This document shows positions 55,339 through 62,928 of a stretch of 64,000 nt of DNA, one piece after another (the first letter of the stretch is position 1; every line of letters starts with the position of its first letter). Position numbers and translations under genes: made by a program. Under the pieces are notes generated by a model. It did not search any database. It was not told the DNA's origin and saw only the letters and a program-made list of their open reading frames with translations. Source of the DNA: Afifellaceae bacterium (GTDB lineage: Bacteria > Pseudomonadota > Alphaproteobacteria > Rhizobiales > Afifellaceae). The stretch lies in contig JANQKG010000022.1 in NCBI GenBank assembly GCA_028281235.1, positions 62,001-126,000 of the forward strand, given 5' to 3'.

Positions 55339-55695
55339 TGTCATCCCGGAAGTGGGAGCCCGAAGGGATCACGCTGTCCGGGATCCATGAACATTGTCGC
55401 ATGCCATTGGCCACCCTAGGCAGCCGGAACCTAGAAGGGCGGTGTCCATGGGTCCCGGTCTTGCCGCTGGCGCGGCAAACCGGGATGACACCAGGGATGG
55501 CAAGGTGCTGGATCGACCCTCTCCCCCTTGTGGGGAGAGGGTAGCCGGGCCGGAGCGACTTGTCCGCCGAAGCCCGAAGGGCGAAGGCGGAAGCGAGGGA
55601 CCGGCTGGGTGAGGGGTTTTTAAGTTTGAGGCTTGAACAGAACCCCTCCCCCGGCCGCTTCGCGGCCACCCCCTCCCCACAAGGGGGAGGGGGTG
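55339..55695. repeat. Complex palindromic repeats between nuoI and nuoJ
   Basis: The 511-base gap (55224-55734) contains no gene. TGTCATCCCGG (55339-55349) pairs with CCGGGATGACA (55480-55490), enclosing ATCCATGAACA and TCCATGGGTCCCGG modules seen at the other sites. Next, ACCCTCTCCCC (55516-55526) and GGGGAGAGGGT (55532-55542) form a perfect 11-base hairpin. A further CACCCCCTCCCC/GGGGGAGGGGGTG palindrome lies near 55667-55695. The stretch 55224-55338 shows nothing recognisable. Confidence 0.8.
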
Positions 55696-56228: not shown

Positions 56229-56696
56229 CTATGCCCTTCCTGAGGCGGCAGTGCCGCGTTCCTCACCGTGATCAGCAAGCCTGGAGCGCGACGAACGCGC
56301 GAACCGCTCCGCGCTGTCCTCTATGTGCAGCCACGGCAGGCGCTGCGAATCGTAGCTATGAATCTGCGGCACAAGCTCACTCGCTTGATCGAGCAAGCCG
56401 ACCGGAACGTAGACCTGGCCCGGCAGATAGTCGAATCGTGAAGCCAGCGGTGATCCGCAGGACGCACAGAACGACCGCGACACGCCGGAATTCGCTGACA
56501 CGTTACGCCCTTCGTCCGGCGCAAACGTCACCGCTGCTTCATCAAACGCGGCGAATGCGCTCACCGGAGCGCCGGTGACCCGGCGGCAATCAACGCAATG
56601 GCAATAGGCGACGGCCTGTGGCGCGCGTGTCGCAGTCAAAGTGACCGCGCCGCAATAGCAGCGCCCGGTGATCGGCAAACTGACGGCCGCGTTCAT
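56229..56696 (-). CDS. GFA family zinc protein inside the nuo operon (second copy)
   Basis: A 155-residue protein with the Gfa cysteine pattern: [24 protein letters not shown] and [14 protein letters not shown], then [15 protein letters not shown] 56696 gives a family-like N-terminus; the frame is open further upstream but is less convincing. It lies between a 70-residue membrane protein gene and nuoI with only 2 bases to nuoI, so it is surely cotranscribed with complex I. A zinc-binding role is likely; any role in complex I or cofactor handling would be speculation. Confidence 0.85.
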
Positions 56697-56763
56697 CGCG
56701 CCGGCTCCATCATCGTCAGCCCTGTCGTCACAGCACAGAAGCGTATCGCCCGGACAGCCATGG

Positions 56764-56976
56764 CTATATGCCCTCATCACCCGCCAGGATCGACCCGACG
56801 ATGACGCCGATCACCGGGAACAGGATCAGCTGCGCCTTGCGCGCCAGGTCGAGGACGTGCGGCCCCCGCCCTCTTTCGCCGCGCTTCTCGGCACGCGCAA
56901 TCAAAGCGCCGAAGATGAAATATTCCACGACCGCAAAGGCGAGCCCCACCAAGCCACCGATGAGCGCCAGAGACAT
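56764..56976 (-). CDS. Small two-helix membrane protein in the nuo operon
   Basis: A 70-residue protein with two hydrophobic helices (LALIGGLVGLAFAVVEYFIFGALI and AQLILFPVIGVIVGSILAG) joined by a basic loop (EKRGERGRGPH). I do not recognise a named family. It starts 4 bases after the nuoH stop, which argues for a co-regulated membrane protein. It may be a complex I-associated or assembly factor, but nothing in the sequence shows this. Confidence 0.75.
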   Translation of the reverse strand: MSLALIGGLVGLAFAVVEYFIFGALIARAEKRGERGRGPHVLDLARKAQLILFPVIGVIVGSILAGDEGI

Positions 56977-56980
56977 CGCC

Positions 56981-58042
56981 CTAGCCCGCCGCCGGAACGC
57001 CGCCCCAGCCCGTGAGCTGCAGCACGAACGCCACAATAACGATGGCGGCCAGCGAGATCGGCAGAAACACCTTCCAGCCGAGCCGCATGAGCTGGTCATA
57101 GCGGTAACGCGGCACGAACGCCTTCACCAAGGCGAACATGAAGAAGACGGCGCACACCTTGAGCACGAACCACACCACACCCGGCACCCAGGTGAACGGT
57201 GCGAAATCGAAAGGCGGCAGCCAGCCGCCCAGGAAGAGGATCGTGGTGAGCGCGCAGATCAGCGTGATCGCGACATACTCACCCAGCATGAACATCATGT
57301 ACGGGGTCGACGCGTACTCGACCATGAAGCCCGCCACGAGCTCCGATTCCGCCTCCGGCAGATCGAAGGGCGGCCGGTTGGTCTCCGCCAGCCCGGAGAT
57401 GAAGAAAATGACGAAGAGCGGGAAGAGCGCCAGCCAATGCCAGTCAAGGAAGCTGTTGGGCAGGCCCATCATGGTGCCAAGACCCACGGTCTGCGACATG
57501 ACGATGTCGGTCATGTTGAGCGAGCCCACCGCCAGAAGCACGGCGATGATGACGAAGCCGATGGAGACCTCGTAGGAGACCATCTGCGCGGCGGAGCGCA
57601 GCGCGCCGAGAAAGGCGTATTTGGAGTTCGACGCCCAGCCGCCCATGATCACGCCGTAGACTTCCAGCGAGGCGATGGCGAAGACGTAGAGAATCCCGAC
57701 ATTGATGTCGGCGATCACCCACCCGGCATTGACCGGGATGACGGCCCATGCCGAAAGCGCCAGAAGCACGGAGACAAGCGGCGCCAGAAGAAAGATCGTC
57801 TTGTTGGCCGGCGCCGGGATCACCGGTTCTTTCAGGAAGAATTTGAGAAGATCGGCAAAGGATTGAAACAGGCCCCACGGACCGACGACATTGGGCCCGC
57901 GCCGCAACTGCACCGCCGCCCAGATCTTGCGGTCGGCATAAAGCAGATAAGCGATAAGGAGCAGCAGCGCGGCCATCAGCACCGCGCTCTGAACGACGAT
58001 CAGAGCCCCGGGCAGAACGTAGTCGCTGAAAAAGGCGTTCAT
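56981..58042 (-). CDS. nuoH: NADH-quinone oxidoreductase subunit H
   Basis: A 353-residue membrane subunit with eight predicted helices forming the quinone-site roof. The conserved charged loops [37 protein letters not shown] and [31 protein letters not shown], and [17 protein letters not shown], are intact. It follows nuoG after 20 bases. Confidence 0.97.
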
Positions 58043-58062: not shown

Positions 58063-60168
58063 TTATTCGGCTGCCTCAGCCGCCGGGCCGAGATGCATGG
58101 CGGAGCATTCGGCCAAAGTGGCCGACGCCCGTGCGATCGGATTGGTCAGATAGAAATCCTTGATCGGACTAGCGAATGGCGGACCGGCAATGGCCCCGCC
58201 AATGGCCGCGACACGACCGAAATCCGCCCGTTCCGCCGGCTTGATCGTGTCGATCTCGGCAAGATGCGGATGCGCCTCGTAGAGCTCTGCGCGGAGCGCC
58301 GCAAGGCTGTCGAACGGTAGCGTCCGGCCAAGCGCACCCGACAGCGCTCGGAGGATAGACCAATCCTCACGCGCCTCGCCCGGCGGGAAGGCAGCGCGGT
58401 TGCCCAGCTGCACGCGGCCCTCGGTGTTCACCCAGGTCGCCGATTTCTCCGTATAGGCCGCGCCCGGCAGGATCACGTCGGCGCGATGCGCACCGGCATC
58501 GCCATGCGTGCCGATATAGACGACGAACGGACCCCCGAGGGAGGCTTGAGGCGGCATCGCGATTTCATCGGTGCCAAGCAGGAAGAGCACGTCAAGCCCG
58601 CTATCGGCGGCGACCATCTCGTGCGCAGTCTTGCCGCCGTCAGCCGGCACGAAGCCGATGTCGAGACCCCCGACCCGTGCGGCGGCACTATGCAGGACCG
58701 AAAGGCCGGTCCAGTCGTCGCTCATCGCGCCGACATCGGCGGCAAGCCGCGCCGCAGCGGACAAAACGGCAGCGCCATTGTCACCCACAAGCGCCCCCTG
58801 CCCTACGATGATCAGCGGCCGCTCCGCCGCGCTCAGCGCTTGATAAAAGTCCCCTTCGCCGGCGAGAAGATGCGACAGCGATTCCGGACCGGCACCGAGA
58901 TAGTCGTAATCATAAGTGAGATCGGCCGGCTCACCGATGACGCCGATCGGCGGCTGGGCGGCACGCCAGCACTTGCGGATGCGCGCGTTCAAAACCGGCG
59001 CTTCCTTGCGCGGATTGGAACCGACGATCAGGATCGCATCGGCCGATTCAATGCCGGCGACACTGGCATTGAAAATGTAGCTGCCGCGCCCCAGCGCCGG
59101 ATCGAGTGCCGCGCCGTCCTGCCGGCAGTCCATGTTCAAAGAGCCGAGGCTCTCCAACAGGCGCTTCAGCGCAAACATCTCCTCAACGCCGGCAAGGTCG
59201 CCGGCAATCGCTCCGACCTTGTCGCCGCTCGTTGCGCCAACCCGGTCCGCAATCGCCGCAAAAGCTTCCGGCCAGGACACGGCTTGCAGCCTGCCGTCGA
59301 CCCGCAGATACGGCCGATCGAGGCGCTGCGCGCGCAAGCCGTCGACGCAATGGCGCGTCTTGTCGGAAATCCATTCCTCGTTCACGTCTTCATTGAGCCG
59401 CGGCAGGATGCGCATTACCTCCTTGCCGCGTGCATCGACCCGGATGTTGGCGCCGAGCGCGTCCATCACGTCGATGGATTCCGTCTTGTCGAGCTCCCAG
59501 GGCCGCGCCTTGAAGGAATAAGGCTTCGACGTCAGCGCGCCGACCGGGCAGAGATCGACGACATTGGCCTGGAGCTCAGAGACCATCGCGTGCTCCAGAT
59601 AGGTCGTGATCTCCATGTCCTCGCCGCGGCCCGTGGCCCCGAGCTCCGGCACACCGGCGACTTCGGTGGCGAAGCGGATGCACCGCGTGCAATGGATGCA
59701 GCGGTTCATGAAGGTCTTCACCAGCGGACCGATATGCTTGTCCTCCACGGCGCGCTTGTTCTCGTGATAACGCGACGTGTCGACGCCATAGGCCATGGCC
59801 TGGTCCTGCAGATCGCACTCGCCGCCCTGGTCGCAGATCGGGCAATCCAGCGGGTGGTTGATGAGCAGGAACTCCATCACACCCTCGCGCGCCTTCTTGG
59901 TCAGCGCGGAGCGTGTGAGCACCTCCGGCGGCTCGCCGTTGGGGCCGGGGCGGCAGTCGCTCACGCCCCACGCACATGACGCCACCGGCTTCGGCGCACC
60001 CTTCAACTCCACCAGGCACATGCGGCAATTGCCGGCGATGGACAGCCGCTCGTGGAAGCAGAAGCGCGGGATCTCCGCGCCCGCCTCCTCACACGCCTGC
60101 AGCAGCGTGTAGGACGGCGGGACTTCGATTTCCCGGCCGTCAACGATCAGCTTGCGAAGGTCGCTCAT
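58063..60168 (-). CDS. nuoG: NADH-quinone oxidoreductase subunit G
   Basis: A 701-residue peripheral-arm subunit. The N-terminal [2Fe-2S] domain has [18 protein letters not shown]. The next part has [17 protein letters not shown] and [16 protein letters not shown] for the 4Fe-4S clusters. The molybdopterin-oxidoreductase-like domain ([24 protein letters not shown] onward) has lost its cofactor, as usual. The extra binding site for cluster N7 typical of E. coli is not evident. A 27-base gap separates it from the unusual hypothetical upstream. Confidence 0.96.
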
Positions 60169-60195: not shown

Positions 60196-60633
60196 TCACG
60201 CGAAGATCACCTGACCCGACGTGGCGCGGGCGATCAGCGCCAGTTCCTTGGCCGTGAACGTGCCGCTGTTGCTGATCCGCAGATGCGCCTCGTCCTGCAT
60301 GCTTTGCGCCAGCGAAACAAGCTCAACCGCCTCGTATCGCGATCCGTCCAGCTCAAGGCTGGCGCCCTGCCGTGCAATCTCTGCCAGATCATCTGCCGGC
60401 AGGTCGTCAAGCGGCGAGCCGAACTGCGCATCGGACGCCTCCACCGGCACGGGCGCAGGCGGCTCCGGCAGCCGCAGATCGCTCGCCCCCTCCGTAGGTT
60501 CGGCCGCCACTTCCGTCACCATCGTCGACAGGATCGAACGCGCACGCGTCTCCAAGAGCGGCGCGCCGGGCCGCACCTTCTTAGCTCTTTGCGTACGCAC
60601 CAGCGGCTGCCGCTTGCCTTTGGTCTTGGGCAT
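60196..60633 (-). CDS. Hypothetical three-repeat protein between nuoF and nuoG
   Basis: A 145-residue protein I do not recognise. Residues 1-45 are basic (MPKTKGKRQPLVRTQRAKKVR). Residues 46-75 are Pro/Ala/Glu-rich. Residues 81-145 hold three similar units of about 20-26 residues (81-100, 101-126 and 127-145), each starting x-x-E/D-L-x-x-I/L-A and ending in a short beta stretch (ASLELDG, AHLRISN, GQVIF). ATG 60633 has an AAGGGA site; ATG 60687 is also possible. A canonical nuo operon has no gene here, yet the gaps of 27 and 57 bases show co-transcription. Confidence 0.75.
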   Translation of the reverse strand: MPKTKGKRQPLVRTQRAKKVRPGAPLLETRARSILSTMVTEVAAEPTEGASDLRLPEPPAPVPVEASDAQFGSPLDDLPADDLAEIARQGASLELDGSRYEAVELVSLAQSMQDEAHLRISNSGTFTAKELALIARATSGQVIFA

Positions 60634-60690
60634 ATCAAATCCCTTCGCATTCCCGCCTTGGCGTGAAAACTCCCGGCGGCTCAGCATCGA

Positions 60691-61995
60691 TCACTCCGCC
60701 GCCTGCATGATCGCGCCGCCGGTCTTCTGCGCCGCTGCATAATCGTCGATGCGACGCTCGATCTCTGGGCGGAAATGGCGGATCAGCCCCTGTATAGGCC
60801 AGGCCGCCGCATCGCCGAGCGCGCAGATCGTGTGACCCTCGACTTGGTAGGTCACCTCAAGCAGCATGTCGATCTCGCGCTTCTCCGCCTCGCCCCGCGC
60901 CATGCGCTCCAAGACGCGCCACATCCAGCCGGTCCCCTCGCGGCACGGCGTGCACTGGCCGCAGCTCTCATGCTTGTAGAAATAGGCGATGCGGGCAATG
61001 GCGCGCACGATATCGGTGGACTTGTCCATCACGACGACGGCCGCCGTGCCGAGACCGGACTTCAAGTCGCGCAGCGTATCGAAATCCATCGGCAGGTCGT
61101 CGCAGACGCTCGCCGGCAGGCAAGGCACTGACGACCCACCGGGGATGACGGCCATGAGATTGTCCCAGCCACCCCGCACGCCGCCGCAATGCTTGTCGAT
61201 CAGCTCGCGCAGCGGAATGCCCATCTCCTCTTCCACCGTGCACGGCGCGTTCACGTGCCCTGAGACGCAGAAGAGCTTGGTGCCGGTGTTGTTGGGCTTG
61301 CCGAGACCGGCGAACCAGTTCCCACCGCGCCGCAAGATCTCCGGCGCCACCGCAATCGATTCCACATTGTTGACCGTGGTGGGGCAGCCATAGAGGCCCA
61401 TATTGGCGGGGAATGGCGGCTTCAGCCGCGGCATGCCCTTCTTGCCTTCCAGGCTCTCCAAAAGCGCGGTCTCCTCGCCGCAAATATAGGCGCCGGCGCC
61501 GTGCGCGATGACGATGTCGAAATCCCAGCCGTGGACATTGTTCTCGCCGATGAGGCGCGCCTCGTAGCACTCGTCGACCGCCGCCTGCAGCGCTTCGCGC
61601 TCGCGGATGAACTCGCCGCGAATGTAGATGTAGGCCGTGTGCGCCCCCATCGCGAAGGAGGCGATCAGGCAGCCCTCGATCAGAAGATGCGGATCGTGCC
61701 GCATGATCTCCCGGTCCTTGCAGGTGCCGGGCTCCGATTCATCGGCATTGACGACCAGATAATGCGGCCGCTCGCCGATCTCCTTGGGCATGAACGACCA
61801 TTTGAGGCCGGTCGGGAAGCCGGCCCCGCCTCTTCCCCTAAGCCCGGATGCTTTCACCTCTTCGATGATCGCGTCGCGGCCGCGCTCCAGCATCGCCTTG
61901 GTGCCGTCCCAAGCGCCACGCGAACGCGCGCCCTTCAGCATCGGGTCGTGCAGCCCGTAGAGATTGAGGAAGATACGGTCTTTGTCGGAAAGCAT
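60691..61995 (-). CDS. nuoF: NADH-quinone oxidoreductase subunit F
   Basis: A 434-residue subunit holding FMN and the NADH site. [13 protein letters not shown] (51-63) binds NADH and [13 protein letters not shown] with C345, C348 and C351 supplies three ligands of the 4Fe-4S cluster, and a later cysteine in [13 protein letters not shown] supplies the fourth. It follows nuoE after 9 bases. Confidence 0.97.
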
Positions 61996-62004
61996 GCCGC
62001 GCCC

Positions 62005-62928
62005 CTATTTGCCTGACGTCTCGGCGGCGAATCTGCGCGCCTGACCGAGCCAGTCGTCGCGGTCGATCCGGCCTTTGAACTTAAGACGGTTGTCCACCCA
62101 GGCGATGTTCTGAGGCGTCCACGCCGCGATCTGCGCGAAAGTGTAGATGCCCATGGCGTTCAACAGGCTCTCCAGATTCGGGCCGACGCCGGAAATCCGT
62201 TGCAGATCGTCGGCGCCTTCTTCCGGCGCAGCCGCGAGAAGCTCAGGCTCCGCTTCCGCCACGCTCGCGGCCTCTGCTTCGGCGGGCTCGGCCGACGCCG
62301 CCATCGGTTTGGCAGCGGCGTCGGAATAGTCGATCTCCGTTAGGGAGGTCAGCCCGTTGATCGGCACAGAGTGGCGGCGCCCGTTCTGCGGACCCGGAAT
62401 CGGCATCTCGCCGCGATCGAATGCATCGAGCACCGCCTCAAAGCTCTCCGGCGTGAGGTCCTCGTAGGTGTCCTTGAACACCTGCACCATCGGCGCGTTC
62501 ACGCAGGCGCCGAGGCACTCCACCTCCTCCCACGAAAACGCCCCGTCAGCGGAGCGATGATGCGGCTCGGCGTGAATCCGCCGGCGGCAGACTTGGATGA
62601 TGTCGCCGGCGCCGCGCAGCATGCACGGCGTCGTCCCGCAGACCTGCACATGCGCCTTAGCGCCGACCGGCTCCAGATGGAACATCGTGTAGAAGGTGGC
62701 GACCTCCAGGACGCGGATTGTCGGCATGGACAGCATCTCCGCCACCTGCTCGATCGCCGGCTTGGTGATCCAGCCCTCCTGCTCCTGCGCCCGCCACAAA
62801 AGCGCAATCACCGCCGAGGCCTGCCGGCCTTCGGGAAATTTGGCGATTTCCCGCTCCGCCCAGGCGTGATTATCCGGGCTGAAAGCGAAGCTCTCCGGCT
62901 GCGTTTCGGCGAGACGACGGACGGCCAT
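62005..62928 (-). CDS. nuoE: NADH-quinone oxidoreductase subunit E with C-terminal HhH-like extension
   Basis: A 307-residue subunit, much longer than the E. coli protein (166). Residues of about 15-165 are the thioredoxin-like [2Fe-2S] domain, with cluster ligands in CGTTPCMLRGA and CLGACVNAPM. An Ala/Glu-rich linker follows. Residues 240-307 form a helix-hairpin-helix-like domain (LQRISGVGPNLESLLNAMGI, then DWLGQARRFAAE). This extension is known in Rhizobiales NuoE, but its role is unclear. Confidence 0.95.
   Translation of the reverse strand: MAVRRLAETQPESFAFSPDNHAWAEREIAKFPEGRQASAVIALLWRAQEQEGWITKPAIEQVAEMLSMPTIRVLEVATFYTMFHLEPVGAKAHVQVCGTTPCMLRGAGDIIQVCRRRIHAEPHHRSADGAFSWEEVECLGACVNAPMVQVFKDTYEDLTPESFEAVLDAFDRGEMPIPGPQNGRRHSVPINGLTSLTEIDYSDAAAKPMAASAEPAEAEAASVAEAEPELLAAAPEEGADDLQRISGVGPNLESLLNAMGIYTFAQIAAWTPQNIAWVDNRLKFKGRIDRDDWLGQARRFAAETSGK

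Follow-up and report, generated by a model that had tools for sequence, protein, structure and literature searches.

The nearest precedent for the protein described here is CI-PIMT, a soluble, Paracoccus-specific subunit on the hydrophilic arm of complex I which was demonstrated by structure and mass spectrometry (PMC11522691). CI-PIMT would serve as a precedent for a soluble protein that one lineage has added to this arm of its complex I, although no sequence link joins the two proteins and ours is tied to complex I by gene position alone. The nearest family by sequence is PHROG 27431, a phage protein family of 75 profile positions; a literature search under the family name returned nothing. 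Compared with this family, our protein differs in its 75-residue tail, its heterogeneous repeats and its chromosomal location among nuo genes. A third comparison is provided by a helix-hairpin-helix protein that occupies the same intergenic gap in relatives and has a similar basic, Pro- and Ala-rich N-terminal part, but ends in a helix-hairpin-helix domain where ours has three repeats.

The gene lies in a 64,000-nucleotide stretch of an Afifellaceae genome (hereafter the window). A sequence-only reading had proposed a 145-residue protein between nuoF and nuoG, and we confirmed the open reading frame on the minus strand, the strand shared by both neighbours, which were identified with Pfam and NCBIfam profiles (Table 1). 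Its stop codon precedes nuoG by 27 nt. Two starts are available. The inner ATG at 60633 yields 145 residues and has AAGGGA upstream, while the outer ATG at 60687 yields 163 residues, lies 3 nt beyond the nuoF stop and, by direct reading, follows a GGAG six nt upstream, inside the end of nuoF. Both starts are also open in the genus relative G001, and the extension carries three changes in 54 nt between the two genomes. The start is ambiguous between the 145- and 163-codon forms.

Table 1. Coordinates of the three-repeat gene, its neighbours and its protein segments in the window
Feature	Coordinates	Strand	Basis or remark
Three-repeat gene	60196..60633	-	145 codons plus stop; open reading frame, G001 orthologue, dN/dS
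Candidate 18-codon upstream extension (163-aa form)	60634..60687	-	Frame open in both genus members
nuoF, upstream neighbour	60691..61995	-	TIGR01959, 644 bits; PF01512
nuoG, downstream neighbour	58063..60168	-	TIGR01973, 719 bits
Residues 1-75, basic N-terminus and Pro-rich stretch	60409..60633	-	Composition; without confident predicted structure
Residues 80-145, three-unit helix-strand domain, PHROG 27431	60199..60396	-	Profile matches; pLDDT
Repeat core 1, DLAEIA (residue 82)	60373..60390	-	
Repeat core 2, ELVSLA (residue 104)	60307..60324	-	
Repeat core 3, ELALIA (residue 130)	60229..60246	-	

A protein search of 61 genomes matched the window's own genome and G001 only, the latter being the sole other member of the genus sampled; its copy is 88% identical and sits in the same place between nuoF and nuoG. 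The same copy of the gene is also present in JANQRH010000009.1, from an Afifellaceae metagenome-assembled genome, and a consensus-like probe found no second copy in the window's own genome. Across 143 codons, the window and G001 genes differ at 15, 6 and 44 first, second and third codon positions, respectively, with dN of 0.063 and dS of 0.587 (dN/dS about 0.11). These values show the gene to be a real coding gene under purifying selection, and together with the family match reported below they go against the non-coding outcome (no homologues, poor codon conservation) that had been allowed for. Selection is looser than on the adjacent genes, as judged from the dN and dS values of nuoF (0.012 and 0.368) and of the first 489 codons of nuoG (0.024 and 0.352). 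Elsewhere in the bacterial family, the protein was not found in the nine other members sampled (two of 11 have the gene, both in one genus).

The protein had been described as having a basic N-terminus, a Pro-rich linker and three repeats with an E/D-L-x-x-I/L-A core, and each feature is borne out: residues 1-35 contain 11 K/R against one D/E, residues 46-75 contain seven Pro, and three hits to the core motif arise in only two of 100,000 shuffled versions of the protein. In the window, the protein repeats are not backed by a tandem repeat in the DNA. Residues 1-75 have no significant family match in Pfam or NCBIfam, and no N-terminal homologue was found. In a structural model built from an alignment of four sequences, residues 81-145 form a helix followed by a strand three times over with block-mean pLDDT of 86-92, against 45-55 for residues 1-70, and a model of the stand-alone relative L083 has the same three units (mean pLDDT 94). 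The C-terminal domain is thus predicted to consist of three helix-strand units, which answers the call for a fold prediction. Foldseek at E<=0.001 returned no match in the PDB for either model and none in BFVD for the window model, and the best VIA-align scores for the two models (Z of 5.0 and 5.8) are spread over unrelated alpha/beta proteins; none of these fold searches gave a match hinting at function. A phmmer search against PDB chains gave one hit (E 0.7, the unrelated 'Protein 6.7') and no relation to a solved complex I subunit. A row of units of about 22-26 residues recalls leucine-rich repeat and other alpha/beta repeat folds, although the best fold scores are scattered and lack a family signature. 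Leucine-rich repeat proteins were tied with unrelated alpha/beta proteins, both LegL7 (Z 4.2, 82 aligned residues, rmsd 3.9) and FBXL17 (Z 4.0, 72 aligned residues, rmsd 3.3). The models therefore give a leucine-rich repeat fold no standout signal, yet would allow it.

The sequence-only reading had suggested an HMM search with the repeat unit, and homologues of the C-terminal domain were found. The phrog_27431 profile matches the window protein with E of 7.8e-5, aligning residues 80-145 with positions 7-75 of 75, and the G001 copy with E of 0.0013. In a set of 5560 sequences, a profile built from stand-alone proteins only, eight in number, scores the window protein at 58 bits (E 1.6e-16) and the best decoy at 12 bits. 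Residues 80-145 are shown by these profile matches to belong to the PHROG 27431 three-repeat family; Pfam and NCBIfam hold no match for the protein. Stand-alone relatives occur in a faecal phage record (L041), on a Roseomonas plasmid 51 nt downstream of an integrase gene (L042), on a Vitreoscilla plasmid (L043), on two viral contigs (L044 and L083) and in the genomes G784, G644, G789, G095 (two copies) and G879; L041, L042 and L043 match the PHROG profile as well. The closest relative of the window domain is L115, from G095, with 48% identity over 64 residues. All 11 other non-orthologous members found are stand-alone proteins of about 70-80 residues, compared with 145 or 163 for the window protein, which we regard as a variant, with an added tail and a lasting place in a respiratory operon, rather than a typical member.

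The family is rare and hard to detect. We found it in four of 398 genomes of the phylum and four of 224 of the order, samples that overlap and in which a first look scored part of the candidates per genome, so that copies can be missed. Within two carrier families, a further profile (A4) recovered one of 198 and one of 46 genomes, each the seed genome only, and in 372 class genomes it recovered the window only. Among 101 relatives, phrog_27431 likewise returned the window only, G001 not being recovered at E<=0.001; at E<=0.01 it picked out 14 of 385 class genomes, and the 13 besides the window were read, judged to be chance matches and dropped. With the window domain as query, tblastn at E<=1 detected nothing in phages or plasmids, and L041, L042 and L043 needed a consensus-like probe for detection. 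Scans of viral contigs with A2, A3 and L041 confirmed no relative, and those with L043, L044 and the G784 protein yielded L044, the same contig again (L052) and L083. Because the domain family is scattered and occurs in phages and plasmids, and because the protein was not found in the nine other family members sampled, we consider that it is not an ancestral part of complex I.

We then compared the nuoF-nuoG junction among relatives. In the 11 family members sampled, the gap contains the three-repeat gene in two, an intact helix-hairpin-helix gene in four, a shortened or degraded remnant of it in three and no recognised gene in two; an HMM of the helix-hairpin-helix domain finds no match in the gaps of the window and G001 and matches seven of the other nine. 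The gene looks decayed in L003, L004 and L007, which share one genus label (weak, short HMM matches with E of 3e-9 to 3e-8, against 1e-38 or better for intact copies). At the threshold used, nuoF was found in 43 of 46 genomes of the order, and we examined the best-scoring 28 loci from other families, 23 of which had nuoG within reach. Among these best-scoring loci, 15 of 23 have a gap shorter than 150 nt without a helix-hairpin-helix gene, two have that gene and six have longer gaps without it. The earlier statement that canonical operons have no gene here is consequently correct for most of these loci and fails for the eight with larger, ORF-containing gaps. The longer gaps hold pentapeptide-like proteins and short coiled-coil-like ORFs, as read by eye, and some of their proteins are presumably DUF3291-like and VOC-like. 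The junction is therefore permissive and also takes unrelated genes. One pentapeptide-like protein lies in the G004 gap (L012:3507-3881), with similar-looking ones in the L088 and L104 gaps, and may be a separate gene that recurs in this gap.

Several other features of the nuo genes were recorded. Two further non-core genes lie between nuoH and nuoI on the minus strand (56229-56780 and 56764-57099), encoding a GFA-family protein (PF04828, E 2.1e-25) and a 111-residue membrane-like protein; G001 retains the two at 66% and about 83-99% identity. A 32-nt inverted repeat at 55516-55694, 91% complementary and with copies 115 nt apart, lies between nuoJ and nuoI. NuoE (62005-62928, minus strand) has a C-terminal extension with a weak, below-cut-off helix-hairpin-helix match, and a domain of this kind follows unrelated proteins in several NCBIfam models. 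The window's genome has a second nuoF-like gene (L018, G000 contig C41:31950-33098; E 1.3e-119, below the family cut-off), and 10 of the 11 family genomes have more than one match.

A second occurrence of the three-repeat family at this junction was found in G879, from another family of the same order. Here, a 76-residue stand-alone protein is the only notable ORF between nuoF and nuoG. It shares 33% identity with the window domain across 67 residues and scores 36 bits against a profile from which it was excluded; the profile that found it was built from the window protein, that is, from sequence and not from position. Its ATG overlaps the nuoF stop (ATGA), and a 13-nt direct repeat (GAGGCTGCTGAAT) stands at the start of the gene and again just before nuoG, a pattern reached by none of 1000 shuffles. 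Two genomes with the same genus label, G052 and G091, have an empty junction in which nuoF runs directly into nuoG. The G879 gene reads as a precise insertion that would have kept the ribosome-binding context of nuoG. Of 10 sites compared for flanking direct repeats, this is the one with a significant result; the window has 5 nt (915 of 1000 shuffles) and G001 has 7 nt (129 of 1000 shuffles), neither of them significant. The position of homologues, proposed as a check, thus divides: 10 of 12 non-orthologous loci lie away from nuo genes and two lie at the nuoF-nuoG junction. Two of 12 at one junction would be very unlikely were location random among about 4000 genes (an assumed round figure), although the permissive slot and the order-weighted sampling weaken this argument.

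We tentatively favour, as a possibility still short of probable, that the window gene is a nuo-operon gene derived from a mobile three-repeat module, which entered the nuoF-nuoG junction and was kept as an adaptor, assembly or regulatory subunit of the NADH module (NuoE/F/G). The small mobile module would have entered first and then been retained, its C-terminal 66 residues forming a compact repeat of three helix-strand units whose exposed helix faces may bind a partner, with the basic, Pro-rich tail acting as a tether. The gene would be co-transcribed with the nuo operon, and the most likely partner would be the NADH module, since the protein is made between NuoF and NuoG; its role would be that of a lineage-specific adaptor, assembly or regulatory subunit. 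The G879 member at the same junction and the purifying selection on the window copy make recruitment beside complex I plausible. The selection on a repeated surface in the family (described below), the confident prediction of three units and the CI-PIMT precedent also count in its favour. Against it stand the failure to find the protein in the nine other family members, the 10 of 12 loci away from nuo, the low repeat homogeneity of the window protein (0.28), and the fact that neither a fold match hinting at function nor an N-terminal homologue was found. Position alone is weak evidence, since relatives carry unrelated genes at the same junction.

The gene may about as likely be a mere passenger, and the earlier alternatives of a complex I accessory or assembly protein and an unrelated insertion accordingly meet mixed evidence: the family is mobile and scattered, yet a second case sits at the junction and selection is purifying. 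As a passenger, it would be one of the small mobile genes that settle in an expressed junction tolerant of coupled insertions, its product serving the element or the cell in some way unrelated to complex I. The phage and plasmid records of its domain relatives, their very sporadic occurrence in the phylum and the carrier families, the unrelated ORFs (helix-hairpin-helix, pentapeptide-like, coiled-coil-like and others) at the same junction, and the direct repeat of G879 beside the empty junctions of its two genus-label mates all fit such an origin. Less readily accommodated are the purifying selection in the window genus, the occurrence of one rare family twice at one junction and the N-terminal tail, which is missing from the stand-alone relatives.

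Another explanation, which we consider unlikely, is that an older helix-hairpin-helix protein of this slot had its C-terminal domain replaced by the three-repeat module, the window's LETRARSIL being a trace of a VEALARPIL-type segment. Intact helix-hairpin-helix genes in four of the 11 family gaps and shortened remnants in three make such a precursor available. Against a score matrix of four sequences, only 87 of 20,000 shuffles do better than the window segment, whose score is unmatched among the 559 window ORFs. However, when this segment is modelled as an HMM, the window protein scores 1.2 bits where shuffles reach up to 9.7, the membrane-like N-terminal segment of the slot protein is absent from the window protein, and a resemblance over 16 residues proves little. 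The N-terminal link, suggestive by score matrix, failed the HMM test and was kept as a rival explanation only.

A role in phage conflict is possible in principle but decidedly unlikely: three-repeat proteins would act in conflicts between phage and host as small adaptors or decoys, the window copy being one that became fixed in a well-expressed operon. Stand-alone members do occur in phage and viral contigs, and in G644 the three-repeat gene (L050:4697-4909) is followed downstream by a strong match to KwaB (E 1.2e-107). PADLOC, however, had no match for the window protein or L083, and of the neighbourhoods of the G784 and G644 loci it showed a defence gene in one of the two. In L050 (4697-7049), another frame, presumably KwaA-like, lies between the stand-alone three-repeat gene and the KwaB match. 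Lastly, that the frame is open merely by chance in G+C-rich DNA, a view which the confinement to one genus and the many long chance ORFs on both strands of the window might support, is a negligible prospect given the dN/dS, the concentration of changes at third codon positions and the significant match to an independent protein family.

The repeats of one protein resemble each other far more than they resemble those of other members. At six non-core helix positions, repeats of the same protein agree at an identity of 0.59, against 0.13 for repeats of different proteins, a difference reached by none of 20,000 permutations; this comparison covers 11 non-orthologous proteins and leaves out G001 as an orthologue and L083 as close to L049. 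With eight proteins, the values are 0.64 and 0.11. Near-threefold motifs within single proteins include KTTGDLVRIA, SREDLRFIA and ISVTSLKQIA. Codons were compared at nine motif positions, those of the core among them and with Met and Trp omitted, across eight stand-alone proteins, a set without the window protein. Of 175 residue pairs that are identical, 93 are encoded by different codons; only L044 shows the opposite tendency, with 19 same and six different codons. Because so many identical pairs differ in codon, the likeness does not reflect recent duplication. Repeats that are alike in protein sequence while their codons differ point to selection on the repeated surface, and for most family members we infer selection for three equal binding faces or a threefold surface. 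Non-core identity is low in the window protein (0.28), L115 (0.17), L117 (0.22) and L051 (0.17), and ranges from 0.44 to 1.0 in the seven others, so that the window copy may have left the homogeneous mode or belong to an asymmetric subgroup.

A broader and rather unlikely proposal is that the family is a mobile, threefold-symmetric reader module, which would present the same face three times to three equivalent target sites, with the face re-specified in each protein. The NADH module would be a recurrent target, reached via the translationally coupled nuoF-nuoG junction, and the window genus would have turned the module into a tethered, asymmetric complex I subunit. Threefold target recognition is a testable prediction for PHROG 27431, a family without known function, and the likeness of repeats at the protein level despite codon divergence matters independently of any link to complex I. 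If that link is real, the locus would illustrate the route by which a mobile mini-protein turns into an accessory subunit of respiration, its intermediates visible in the empty junction, the insertion with its direct repeat and the conserved, extended gene.
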